From: Pelosinus fermentans DSM 17108
GTDB taxonomy: Bacteria; Bacillota; Negativicutes; DSM-13327
NCBI RefSeq assembly: GCF_000271485.2
Contig: NZ_AKVN02000001.1
Coordinates: 4,532,501-4,596,500 of the forward strand
Reading direction: 5' to 3'
Length of the DNA stretch: 64,000 nucleotides
Below are positions 6,113 to 9,413 of this stretch, one piece after another. A program made the position numbers and the translations under genes. Under the pieces are notes generated by a model, which saw only the letters and a program-made list of their open reading frames with translations, had not been told where the DNA came from and ran no database searches. Positions within the stretch are counted from its first letter, which is position 1. Every line of letters starts with the position of its first letter.

Positions 6113-7387
6113 TTATAGCCCTAAGTACTTTACTAAATTCTCCATAAAATCCGGCATTAACGTAGACGCTAATAACATGAAGGTCAATACAATTAACACC
6201 ACGGTAAACGTCCATGAGACCACATTATACCATGCAGAATTTACATAATTACCCATAATGCTTTTATTATTAGCGATCAGCACCATAAAAATGAGAATGG
6301 GGGGCAAAAGCGTACCGTTAACCACTTGAGAGGTAAGCATCACTTGATACAACGACAAATCCGGCCATAGTACTAATCCGGCACCAATAACGATTAAGGC
6401 TGTATATAGACCAAAAAAAGCAGGAGCTTCTTTATATGTTTTACTAACACCGCTTTCAAAACCTAATGCCTCACAAACAGCATAGGCCGTACTAAGAGGC
6501 AATATAAATGCCGCCAACATAGAGGCACCCAACAAACCAAAAGAAAATAGCAAACTGGCATATTCACCAGCCATTGGTTTTAATGCCATCGCTGCATCCT
6601 TAACTGTATCAATGGCAATATTATTCGCATATAAAGTGGCTGCCGTTGCCACGATAATGAAAAAAGCAATCAGCCACGTAAAAAACGCGCCAAACATCAC
6701 ATCCCAAAAAGTATACTTGTAATCTTCGGCAGTAATTCCTTTATCAACAATCGATGCCTGAAGATAAAACTGTCCCCAGGGCGTAATCGTAGTGCCAATT
6801 ACACCAATCGCCATGATTAGAAAGTCCGCATCAGGAGAAAAAGTAGGCGTAATTGATGCAACGAATACTTCTCCCCATGGAGGATCAATAATGATGCCTG
6901 AAATCACATAGCTTAAAAAAGTGGCACATAACACTAAGAAAACCTTTTCGATTTTTCCATAATCTGCTTTCAGTACCAACCACCAGATTAAAAATGCCAT
7001 AATGGGTACTGCAATATATTTACTCACGCCAAAAATTTCAAAGCTAGTTGCAATCCCTGAAAACTCGGATGCCGTAGTACCAATATTAGCAATTAGCAGC
7101 ACACTCATCGCAAAAAAAGTCCATTTAACACCAAATAATTCACGAATCAAATCAGATAGCCCCCGTCCTGTAACAGCCCCTGTCCTTGCTGATATCTCTT
7201 GGGCAATCGCCAGGCAAAAACTACTGATCAGTATAATAAATAGCAGTCCATAGCCATATTTTGCTCCAGCAGCAGCATAGGTGGCAATACCGCCAGCATC
7301 ATTATCGGCAAATGCTGTGACAATTCCCGGTCCCATTACAGCTAGGAATAATCCTAATCTCTTACGCATATTCTTTATTGCATTCAT
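6113..7387 (-). CDS. Nramp-related divalent metal transporter, probably for Mg2+ (NRMT-like)
   Basis: Integral membrane carrier of the Nramp (SLC11) fold with about 11 hydrophobic helices over 424 aa. The first helix reads MGPGIVTAFADNDAGGIATY, where classical Mn/Fe Nramps have D-P-G-N. The sixth helix region reads IGTTITPWGQFYLQA, where they have the M-P-H motif. Loss of the Met that prefers transition metals is the hallmark of the bacterial Nramp-related magnesium transporters. Context agrees: the start is 2 nt after the stop of a PRC/MgtE_N/CBS protein, and the pair lies behind two M-box magnesium riboswitches. The metal identity is inferred from motifs and regulation, not measured. Confidence 0.87.
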   Translation of the reverse strand: MNAIKNMRKRLGLFLAVMGPGIVTAFADNDAGGIATYAAAGAKYGYGLLFIILISSFCLAIAQEISARTGAVTGRGLSDLIRELFGVKWTFFAMSVLLIANIGTTASEFSGIATSFEIFGVSKYIAVPIMAFLIWWLVLKADYGKIEKVFLVLCATFLSYVISGIIIDPPWGEVFVASITPTFSPDADFLIMAIGVIGTTITPWGQFYLQASIVDKGITAEDYKYTFWDVMFGAFFTWLIAFFIIVATAATLYANNIAIDTVKDAAMALKPMAGEYASLLFSFGLLGASMLAAFILPLSTAYAVCEALGFESGVSKTYKEAPAFFGLYTALIVIGAGLVLWPDLSLYQVMLTSQVVNGTLLPPILIFMVLIANNKSIMGNYVNSAWYNVVSWTFTVVLIVLTFMLLASTLMPDFMENLVKYLGL

Positions 7388-7389
7388 CT

Positions 7390-8679
7390 TTATCGCCCCC
7401 GCCCTGCCGTTTTTGTTAAGGCAAACCAGGAGTATGTATCCAGCTTGCCACGCTCTGGCATTAATATATCAAGAATATCATCGACTGTAACAATTCCTAC
7501 CATAACATTCTGTTCATCGACCACTGGTACCGCCAATAAGCTATATTTATTAATGACTTCCGCCACTTTTTGATAATTATCTTCATCCTGTACTACAGCC
7601 ACTTTCGTATGCATCAATTCTTTTAAGGTAGTTTGGGGCGCAGCAACAATTAATTCTCGCAATGACAGAACGCCTTGAAGGTGTTCTTCATCATCCATAA
7701 CATATAGATAATAAATGGTTTCCGCTGTGGGTGATAATTCTCGCAGCTGATTGATAGCCTCTTCTGTGGTAATATGAGAAGAAAATGCAATAAACTCATT
7801 AGTCATTAAGGCGCCAGCAGTTCCTTGCTCATATTGCATGAGTTCTCTAACTTCCTCAGCATCATCACTTTCCATCAATTGCAGCAATCCTTCGGATTTC
7901 TCTACCGGCAGCTCACCCAAAATATCAGCGGCTTCATCTGGGGCCATTTCTTCTAGAATGTCAGATGCCCGCTGCGCATCCATTTGTTCAATAATTTCTA
8001 CCTGAGTATCCAGATTTAATTCTGCCAACGTATCAATTGCCTGTTGATCATCTAAGTTTTCTATAAAGTTGGCCCGGCGTTTATAATCCATTTCCTCGAT
8101 CAATTCTGCAATATCTGCAGGATGCAGTTCTGTCAGCTGCTGCTTTAAGCGATTGAGCTGAAGGTGTGAATTCCAGCTTTCCAAGGGCTTAATAAACTCT
8201 AAAATCAGCCAATTTTGTTTGAACTTTGTAAAGAGAAATTCCAAACCCAATCGCCGGAACAAACCACGCACACCAATGTCAACAGCGACTAACACCATAT
8301 GCTGCTTTCCATCCTGCACCACCCAGGATAATATAATATCGTTTACCCTTACCATTTTGGAACCTTTAATATCAATGATTTGCTTATCCAGCAGCCATTT
8401 GCTGGCATAAATATCATTTTCATGCAGAGGAACGGTTTGATCTACAGTGAAATTTTCGACAAGCTCTACCCTGTCATTGTCACGAAGCACAATCCATTCG
8501 ATTGGAATCAGATTATGTATTTTATTTGCATATTTGACACCAATGACCCGAGGATATACGCCTTCCCAGCGTACTGCGATGTCCTTTACCCGCCCAAAAC
8601 GATTCCCCGCTTTATCATAAATCGACTGACCGATTAATTGACTAAAGTAGAATTCACCTACCATTTTTAATGCGTTCAT
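7390..8679 (-). CDS. PRC-barrel / MgtE_N / CBS-pair protein without a channel domain
   Basis: Soluble 429-aa protein that looks like the cytoplasmic gating part of the magnesium channel MgtE joined to PRC-barrel modules. Residues about 8-75 are a PRC barrel (IGQSIYDKAGNRFGRVKDIAV), a second follows at about 90-150 (KMVRVNDIILSWV), then the superhelical MgtE_N repeats at about 175-280 (DIAELIEEMDYKRRANFIENL, ASDILEEMAPDEAADILGEL), and two CBS domains to the C-terminus. No membrane helix is present, so it cannot conduct ions alone. It probably senses Mg2+ and gates the Nramp protein encoded 2 nt downstream. AGGAGG precedes the ATG. Confidence 0.9.
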   Translation of the reverse strand: MNALKMVGEFYFSQLIGQSIYDKAGNRFGRVKDIAVRWEGVYPRVIGVKYANKIHNLIPIEWIVLRDNDRVELVENFTVDQTVPLHENDIYASKWLLDKQIIDIKGSKMVRVNDIILSWVVQDGKQHMVLVAVDIGVRGLFRRLGLEFLFTKFKQNWLILEFIKPLESWNSHLQLNRLKQQLTELHPADIAELIEEMDYKRRANFIENLDDQQAIDTLAELNLDTQVEIIEQMDAQRASDILEEMAPDEAADILGELPVEKSEGLLQLMESDDAEEVRELMQYEQGTAGALMTNEFIAFSSHITTEEAINQLRELSPTAETIYYLYVMDDEEHLQGVLSLRELIVAAPQTTLKELMHTKVAVVQDEDNYQKVAEVINKYSLLAVPVVDEQNVMVGIVTVDDILDILMPERGKLDTYSWFALTKTAGRGR

Positions 8680-8824
8680 ATTTTATTCCTCCTTCTTTGC
8701 CTGGAGTCCGCCCGCCTTAACGTGAACAGACAAGTTGATATATTGATATTTGCTTATATGGTCACTGGGTCCGGAATCCATAAAACCACCTCCTATTCCT
8801 TCTTTGCTTTCCTATGGGAATGGA

Positions 8825-8864
8825 TAATAAAAGACCTTCTCTCATTTAGATAAGAAGGTCTTTT
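8825..8864 (-). terminator. Expression-platform terminator of the proximal M-box
   Basis: On the minus strand AAAAGACCTTCT and AGAAGGTCTTTT make a 12-bp stem ending in a T-rich tail (TTTTATTAT). The 5' arm can instead pair with GAGAAGGTC at 8892-8900, the 3' strand of the M-box P1 helix, giving an antiterminator. This is the usual arrangement of an off-switch at high Mg2+. Confidence 0.88.
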
Positions 8865-8889
8865 CATGCTGCCATGATCCATACTTGCT

Positions 8890-9060
8890 TTGACCTTCTC
8901 CAATCGTTGAGTTTTAGCACTGCATAACGTAGAGGTACACTATTCCTCAGCCACCTTGAGTAAAACCTTAATTCGGTAATACCTGTTCTACCCATTGGCG
9001 TCTTTCGACGTTTCCGGGCAGTGGCCTGTGTTTATGCAGGAGCCTCACCTAACGAAGAAG
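8890..9060 (-). ncRNA. M-box (ykoK leader) Mg2+ riboswitch, gene-proximal copy
   Basis: Read on the minus strand it has the M-box blocks in order: TTCGTTAGGTGAGGCTCC at the 5' side, CACTGCCCGGAAACGTCGAA, AGACGCCAATGGGT, an AAGGTTTTACTCAAGGTGGC arm, then CTACGTTATGCAGTGCTAAA and a closing GATTGGAGAAGG strand that pairs with the initial CTTCTTCG. These match the conserved core of the Mg2+-sensing aptamer. A terminator hairpin follows at 8825-8864. It precedes the PRC/MgtE_N/CBS and Nramp-like genes and implies expression when Mg2+ is low. Confidence 0.95.
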
Positions 9061-9131
9061 TTCTATATTTATATGTTTGATTTTCTTGCCTTTTACTATA
9101 GTATATCCTGCTACAGCCGCATTGTTCATCC

Positions 9132-9172
9132 AAAACAAGAAAATAGATAAAGCCCCCGTTACCGGAAGGCTT
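9132..9172 (-). terminator. Expression-platform terminator of the distal M-box
   Basis: On the minus strand AAGCCTTCC and GGGGGCTT pair around GGTAAC, followed by a U-rich stretch (TTTATCTATTTTCTTGTTTT). The CCTTCC of the 5' arm is complementary to GGGAAGG at about 9198-9204, the 3' strand of the distal aptamer's P1, so an antiterminator can form here too. Confidence 0.7.
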
Positions 9173-9193
9173 AAAAAGCGAATTTAATATATT

Positions 9194-9368
9194 CACACCT
9201 TCCCCACTCGTACGAGTTTTGGCACTGCATAACGTAGAGTACAAACCAAAAAGCCTCAGCCACCTTAAGTAAAACCTTAATCCGGTAATACCTGTTCTAC
9301 CCATTGGCGTCTCTCGACATTTCCGGGCAGTGGCCTATGTTTATGCAGGAGCCTCACCTAACGAAGAA
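9194..9368 (-). ncRNA. M-box Mg2+ riboswitch, distal copy (tandem arrangement)
   Basis: A second complete M-box aptamer 5' of the first, nearly identical across the core: TTCGTTAGGTGAGGCTCC, CACTGCCCGGAAATGTCGAG, AGACGCCAATGGGT, AAGGTTTTACTTAAGGTGGC, CTACGTTATGCAGTGCCAAA. The peripheral loops and the P1 sequence differ from the proximal copy, so this is not a recent exact duplication. It has its own terminator at 9132-9172. The two switches therefore act in series on one transcript, unless a hidden promoter lies between them. Confidence 0.95.
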
Positions 9369-9384
9369 TTATTTTTCTACTATG

Positions 9385-9413
9385 AGCGTACTACCTTTAT
9401 CGAAATGTGTCAA
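9385..9413 (-). promoter_or_regulatory. Sigma-70/A-type promoter for the M-box leader
   Basis: On the minus strand TTGACA (9413-9408) and TACGCT (9390-9385) are separated by 17 nt, and the distal M-box begins about 17-20 nt downstream. I saw no comparably good promoter between the two aptamers. Between 9414 and 9659 I see only AT-rich sequence and a fragment of the dispersed repeat near 9625-9652. Confidence 0.75.

Follow-up and report, generated by a model that had tools for sequence, protein, structure and literature searches.

Architecture of the locus

The stretch of DNA analysed here, referred to as the window, is 64 kb long and carries on its minus strand a tandem M-box leader upstream of a predicted Mg2+ transport operon that combines an MgtE_N/CBS protein with an NrmT-type Nramp protein (Table 1). 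Against solved structures the Nramp protein scored 368 bits with 7qia, which we take to be the Eggerthella NRMT, followed by 105 bits for the next structure and about 83 bits for MntH; by sequence it appears closest to the Mg2+-type Nramp proteins and not to MntH. In the direction of transcription the leader presents a promoter, two M-box aptamers, each followed by a terminator, and a short ORF that occupies the space between terminator 2 and the first gene. The Shine-Dalgarno sequence of that gene is contained in the last codons of the short ORF. For positions 8825-9413, the original prediction had noted a leader with two switches that have separate expression platforms. That description holds, but it stopped too early and missed the acidic short ORF, which lies past terminator 2 and outside that interval.

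Table 1. Features of the tandem M-box leader and its operon, in the order of transcription (positions in the window)
Feature	Position	Strand	Remarks
Promoter P1, TTGACA-17-TACGCT	9385..9413	-	p=0.004 against shuffles; invariant -35, same place in 7 Pelosinus leaders
M-box aptamer 1 (RF00380)	9196..9372	-	cmscan 165.2 bits, E 3.7e-38; own clade in 7 Pelosinus genomes
Terminator 1 (hairpin 9172-9150, U-rich tail)	9140..9172	-	hairpin -11.6 kcal/mol; 5' arm complementary to aptamer 1 P1 3' strand
Promoter-like site between the switches, TGAACA-17-TATACT	9100..9128	-	9/12 consensus match; p=0.17 against shuffles; probably chance
M-box aptamer 2 (RF00380)	8892..9063	-	cmscan 164.6 bits, E 5.3e-38; own clade
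Terminator 2 (hairpin ~8863-8830, tail)	8822..8863	-	hairpin -15.7 kcal/mol; 5' arm complementary to aptamer 2 P1 3' strand
Shine-Dalgarno AGGAGGTGG of the short ORF	8786..8794	-	matches AAGGAGGTGATC over 8 nt; spacing 5
Short upstream ORF, 32 aa, MDSGPSDHISKYQYINLSVHVKAGGLQAKKEE (MDSGPSDH...)	8683..8781	-	start conserved in 7 Pelosinus genomes; kind recurs behind M-boxes phylum-wide
MgtE_N + CBS + PRC protein without MgtE transmembrane domain	7390..8679	-	Pfam PF03448 (5e-28), PF00571, PF05239
Nramp-related transporter, NrmT type	6113..7387	-	Pfam PF01566; best solved relative 7qia

Two complete M-box switches with their own terminators

A cmscan search with Rfam 15 found exactly two matches to RF00380 in the whole window, both on the minus strand and both far above the gathering score of 44 bits. 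The expectation of two high-scoring covariance matches, as opposed to a single one, was thereby confirmed. Both aptamers are full length (model 1-169) and contain no non-canonical consensus pairs. They are 87.8% identical to each other, so that the claim of two separate M-boxes is sound while the description of their cores as near-identical was slightly too strong. Control by Mg2+ is established M-box biology, and competition between terminator and antiterminator is the usual M-box logic; by analogy, both aptamers of this leader are expected to respond to Mg2+.

As foreseen, each aptamer possesses its own terminator, whose 5' arm is able to pair with the 3' strand of the P1 helix. In switch 1 the strand GGAAGG faces CCTTCC of the terminator (duplex -12.1 kcal/mol); in switch 2 the P1 3' strand AGAAGGTC faces the 5' arm GACCTTCT (-15.0 kcal/mol). 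Terminator 1 is on the weak side, its U-tract being interrupted as UAUCUAUUU, and its strength corresponds to the 22nd percentile among single M-box leaders; six of the seven species have a single uninterrupted U at this terminator. Terminator 2 is of average strength with a short U-run. Because of this weakness and the broken U-tract, switch 1 may contribute little, and aptamer 1 could be a leftover of duplication while aptamer 2 does the work, a reading that would suit a terminator in the weaker quarter of its kind. We judge it decidedly unlikely. Orthologues of aptamer 1 are 96-98% identical, a conservation at least equal to that of aptamer 2 (91-99%), and both copies, together with the antiterminator pairing, are retained in all seven Pelosinus species that carry the tandem. 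Moreover, decay of an M-box can be recognised in this genus, as genome G008 contains a decayed one (79 bits). Retention of both switches could conceivably be explained by the leakiness of two terminators in line. As a general cause of tandems weak terminators were rejected: they fit terminator 1 of Pelosinus, but neither Lysinibacillus nor G318, a genome of another family of the class.

One transcript or two

Promoter P1 combines a perfect -35 with a poor -10 element. In each of the tandem leaders it outscores shuffled sequences (p <= 0.01), and its position is the same in all Pelosinus leaders and in G318, which bears out the claim of one good promoter upstream of both switches. Between the switches, around positions 9070-9190, a strong start site would make the second switch an independent leader. 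The sole candidate there reads TGAACA-17-TATACT in four Pelosinus species and TGAACA-17-TATAAT in a fifth (G007), is absent from G006 and G008, and its score does not rise above that of shuffled spacers (p 0.15-0.23; 0.15-0.35 over all leaders).

Could this site start transcripts that contain aptamer 2 only, so that two promoters feed the switches in parallel? The consensus match listed in Table 1 would favour such an arrangement, as would the persistence of both hexamers in G007 although the bases between them have diverged. We nevertheless consider it unlikely, given the shuffle-level scores and the loss of the site in two species, and since the 15-25 nt gap of G318 and of two of the three Lysinibacillus-type leaders leaves no room for a promoter. 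Across G318 and the Lysinibacillus-type tandems, terminator 1 and aptamer 2 are separated by 15-40 nt, a gap too short for a promoter in most tandems outside Pelosinus. On these grounds an internal promoter that frees the second switch was rejected, while a weak one is possible in five of the seven Pelosinus species. The leader thus holds two complete sensors and, when scored by sequence, P1 as its only promoter above chance; as P1 precedes both switches and the gap site is unsupported, wiring in series on one transcript is the most probable reading.

Distribution and history of the tandem

The tandem M-box is present in all seven Pelosinus genomes that carry the mgtE_N-nrmT operon, and a pattern scan showed the same arrangement in contigs of P. 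fermentans JBW45 and P. propionicus. An eighth genome, G004, was dismissed as a single-M-box counter-example: the M-box it contains is that of the permease locus described below, and the 83%-complete assembly has no mgtE_N gene, hence the count of seven of seven rather than seven of eight. Among 380 genomes of the class, 60 contain an M-box, and two in one leader were found in the seven Pelosinus genomes and in G318. A sample of 131 further M-box genomes of the phylum yielded none with two M-boxes within 1 kb. In the order of Lysinibacillus, M-boxes occur in 43 of 250 genomes and tandems in only three, all Lysinibacillus or Metalysinibacillus. Altogether, tandems were seen in 11 of roughly 234 genomes with an M-box; genome counts from the pattern scan are lower bounds, because the anchor base of the pattern missed the tandem of the window itself. 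An archaeal pattern match proved not to be an M-box.

In a maximum-likelihood tree, the Pelosinus aptamers separate into a clade of the seven first copies (support 0.83) and a clade of the seven second copies (0.96). Orthologous aptamers are 91-99% identical, whereas the two copies of the same Pelosinus leader share 87-88%. Since the copies group by position and orthologues are closer than paralogues, the duplication is older than the genus and the copies have been kept without being homogenised; recent duplication or gene conversion is ruled out by the same tree. The first copy of G318 groups with the first copies of Pelosinus (0.91) and its second copy has no clear grouping, so that one or two origins in the class are both possible. 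The Lysinibacillus pairs sit elsewhere in the tree, and by this evidence the Lysinibacillus/Metalysinibacillus group reached the tandem separately from Pelosinus. From sequence comparison, then, the tandem is a genuine, rare and ancient arrangement that has been retained, and its presence in every Pelosinus genome with the operon, in separate copy clades, argues that selection has kept it.

Other riboswitches were seen alongside. The source genome has a third, single M-box (C1:237151-237327, plus strand) whose downstream gene encodes a membrane protein that, judged by its start as in leader L027, is of the ABC-permease type; behind this M-box comes a longer short ORF with the start MDSDSS, and the locus also occurs in G004 and G009. 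The decayed M-box of G008 (C1:28415-28598, 79 bits) has an eroded 5' half, with the same permease and MDSDSS ORF still behind it. Two tandem TPP riboswitches lie 63 nt apart in the source genome (C1:3274901-3275003 and 3275067-3275167, minus strand), and close TPP pairs are also found in P. fermentans (G003) and P. propionicus (G005). Some Bacilli carry divergent M-boxes on opposite strands about 0.7-1.1 kb apart (G878 C2:3772163-3773567, G904 C29:175053-176070, G953 C9:43739-44768), as if two Mg2+ genes had one common divergent control region.

An acidic short ORF behind M-boxes

Is the short ORF peculiar to this leader? For 159 M-boxes of the phylum we chose the small ORF with the best Shine-Dalgarno sequence behind each, ignoring amino acids in the choice. 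Such an ORF was found behind 105 of them, about one third of the leaders being without one by the criteria of the survey. N-termini were compared with two controls, the main ORFs of the same leaders and the ORFs of the window. Asp or Glu occupies residue 2 in 80 of 100 distinct leader ORFs, but in 14 of the 134 main ORFs (Fisher p 1e-28, with leaders that are related and not independent) and in 12-13% of window ORFs. Proline at residue 5 is enriched 18-fold and glycine at residue 4 eightfold, and an acid-x-acid or acid-Pro motif within residues 2-9 is present in 71% of leader ORFs compared with 10% of main ORFs. Starts such as MDDPDAD, MDPDPG, MDSSPEP, MESDDD, MDADPEP and MADDDD illustrate the range, and Bacilli M-box leaders are alike (MDSSPEPNK, MDSNPDPG, MDDPLSS). 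The ORF of the source leader has only D2, P5 and D7 as acidic or proline residues near its start, and the Pelosinus ORFs carry D2, P5 and D7 or G7.

Several features place the conservation in the amino acids of the ORF start. Codons are mixed: Asp is encoded by both of its codons, Gly by all four, and Ser, including Ser 3, by both families; ATG, GTG and TTG all serve as start codons. Among the Pelosinus genomes, codons 2-6 differ by a single change, a synonymous one, and the ORFs vary in length by whole codons with the frame intact. The genes downstream encode unrelated families of Mg2+ transport proteins and similar transporters, namely MgtE, MgtE_N, CorA, Nramp, P-type ATPase, MgtC and ABC permease. 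Behind 30 TPP leaders of the class no acidic short ORF was present; these gave nine small ORFs, nearly all with starts resembling thiS, presumably its product given the MxVxLNG start, and leader ORFs as a general trait were rejected. Sequence comparison thus gives good support to the acidic ORF as a coding element conserved in M-box leaders at the level of amino acids. A literature search that covered few subscription papers returned no report of acidic short ORFs behind Bacillota M-boxes. In a few Bacilli leaders (L220, L231, L236, L237) the acidic start is missing and SEPPS-like starts appear instead (MCSPTSSEPPS, MSRTSQSEPPS, MSQSSQSKPPG), possibly another motif with the same job.

That the ORF encodes a small functional protein seems most improbable. 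These are translated-looking frames of 20-50 aa with strong ribosome-binding sites, as such a protein would have; however, conservation across families stops at about residue 6, length and C-terminus vary even between close genera, and the short ORF has no NCBIfam match. A more serious alternative is that the ORF merely couples translation to the next gene, or that its first codons are conserved as an RNA stem, the acidic residues having no role. In leaders of the MDSGP type, codons 2-5 pair with a stretch just before the next Shine-Dalgarno sequence better than shuffled sequences do (mean z -2.1), the paired bases on either side varying from genome to genome, and part of the nucleotide conservation in these leaders may reflect such a stem. 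The stop codon also lies 1-4 nt ahead of the next start in several leaders. Acidic starts written with quite different codons (e.g. MDDPDAD, MESDDD, MDADPEP, MADDDD), in contrast, average no such pairing (mean z -0.15), and serine 3 is drawn from both codon families. We regard this alternative as somewhat unlikely. Minimum free energy folding gave no shared structure for the short ORF and the first gene, the MDSGP-type pairing of codons 2-5 alone standing out. The GGATTCC in the first codons of the ORF (8771-8779) recurs as GGANTCC before the next Shine-Dalgarno sequence (8700-8712) in most leaders of the MgtE_N type.

A proposed model for layered Mg2+ control

Based on these observations, we propose that the leader exerts layered control by Mg2+ over the mgtE(N)-nrmT importer operon through two M-box attenuators in series, followed by a check on translation that relies on the short ORF. 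We consider this model rather probable. Transcription from promoter P1 would yield a single transcript, along which polymerase meets two complete M-box attenuators. With Mg2+ high, the P1 helix of each aptamer would be held and the aptamer's own terminator would form; with Mg2+ low, the 3' strand of P1 would be captured by the 5' arm of the terminator, leaving polymerase free to continue. As the operon needs read-through at both switches, the leakage of the two terminators would multiply, and if the switches act independently the multiplied read-through fractions would bring lower leakage and a steeper response. Tighter or steeper repression from switches in series is therefore a reasonable inference.

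The short ORF would be transcribed only after read-through of both switches. Its acidic and proline-bearing N-terminus (MDSGPSD) would probably destabilize translating ribosomes at low Mg2+, as in MgtL and MgtQ, and through this instability Mg2+ would be checked again, at the level of translation, ahead of importer synthesis. Ribosomes completing the short ORF end on the next ribosome-binding site, where they could block or feed the next gene. We put a Mg2+-dependent role of the ORF, of either sign, at about even chances, and a second, ribosome-based Mg2+ sensor is a strong hypothesis for what it could be. Extended to the phylum, the idea becomes tentative, and we would place it just short of an even chance: M-box leaders of Bacillota might be two-stage Mg2+ sensors in which the aptamer gates transcription and the acidic ORF gates translation of the importer, Pelosinus being the extreme with two aptamers in series.

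What would be the implications of such a design? Tandem M-boxes with separate terminators, present across a genus and separately in Bacilli, offer a natural system in which to ask what is gained by lining up two sensors of the same kind. Should the ORF act as we propose, a second sensor has gone unnoticed in many M-box operons.

Relation to known systems

The Pelosinus pair resembles the M-box (ykoK/mgtE, RF00380): each aptamer scores more than 160 bits, has a terminator platform and stands upstream of Mg2+ transport genes. It departs from the usual M-box in having two complete switches, where nearly all other genomes examined have single ones. Tandem TPP riboswitches are known in which each sensor has its own terminator, and glycine tandems usually share one platform. 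With a terminator for each sensor, Pelosinus is like the tandem TPP riboswitches and unlike the glycine tandems. Further precedents for several riboswitches of the same ligand in a row are the glycine tandems (PMC3766115) and a triple c-di-GMP riboswitch (PMC4759541); the glycine, TPP and c-di-GMP arrays all place two or more sensors of one ligand in a leader, as Pelosinus does.

Operons of mgtE(N) and nrmT under M-box control are already known (Shin et al. 2014, PMC4072509), with the same gene pair and the same kind of control as in Pelosinus. That report describes one riboswitch; its main text does not use the word 'tandem', and it appears not to mention the short ORF. A report of 2026 describes a mycobacterial short ORF of unclear role under Mbox control, Mbox-uORF2 (Rv1805A), whose N-terminus is conserved (PMC12810186). 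It is likewise a conserved short ORF between Mbox and operon, conserved mainly at its N-terminus; the mycobacterial Mbox, in contrast, is translational and Rho-dependent, and the report calls uORF2 mycobacteria-specific and does not discuss ribosome destabilization.

The closest functional parallels come from enterobacteria. In E. coli, the EPDP stretch after the start of MgtL causes ribosomes to drop off at low Mg2+, which switches mgtA on (PMC11282234), and in Salmonella Asp2 and Glu5 of the short ORF mgtQ are required for translation of the Mg2+ transporter gene mgtB (PMC8092293). The destabilizing signature consists of early acidic residues, adjacent or one apart, often with proline (PMC11282234, PMC11552253). 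MgtL and MgtQ, like most of the M-box ORFs, have acidic and proline residues right behind the start, ahead of a Mg2+ transporter gene, and the Pelosinus ORF, with its own ribosome-binding site (Table 1), conforms to the MgtL-type layout. MgtL and MgtQ, on the other hand, operate without an M-box, and their effects on translation and transporter have been demonstrated, whereas we infer those of the M-box ORFs; the Pelosinus residues D2, P5 and D7 or G7 also make a milder destabilizing motif than EPDP. Because the peptide is mild and the Mg2+ effect on translation a predicted one, we do not claim membership of the MgtL type. Position, kind of motif and downstream function are nevertheless shared, so that a mode of action like that of MgtL and MgtQ is a fair hypothesis, and the acidic ORF would then unite Gram-positive sensing by the M-box aptamer with enterobacterial sensing by MgtL-type ribosome instability.
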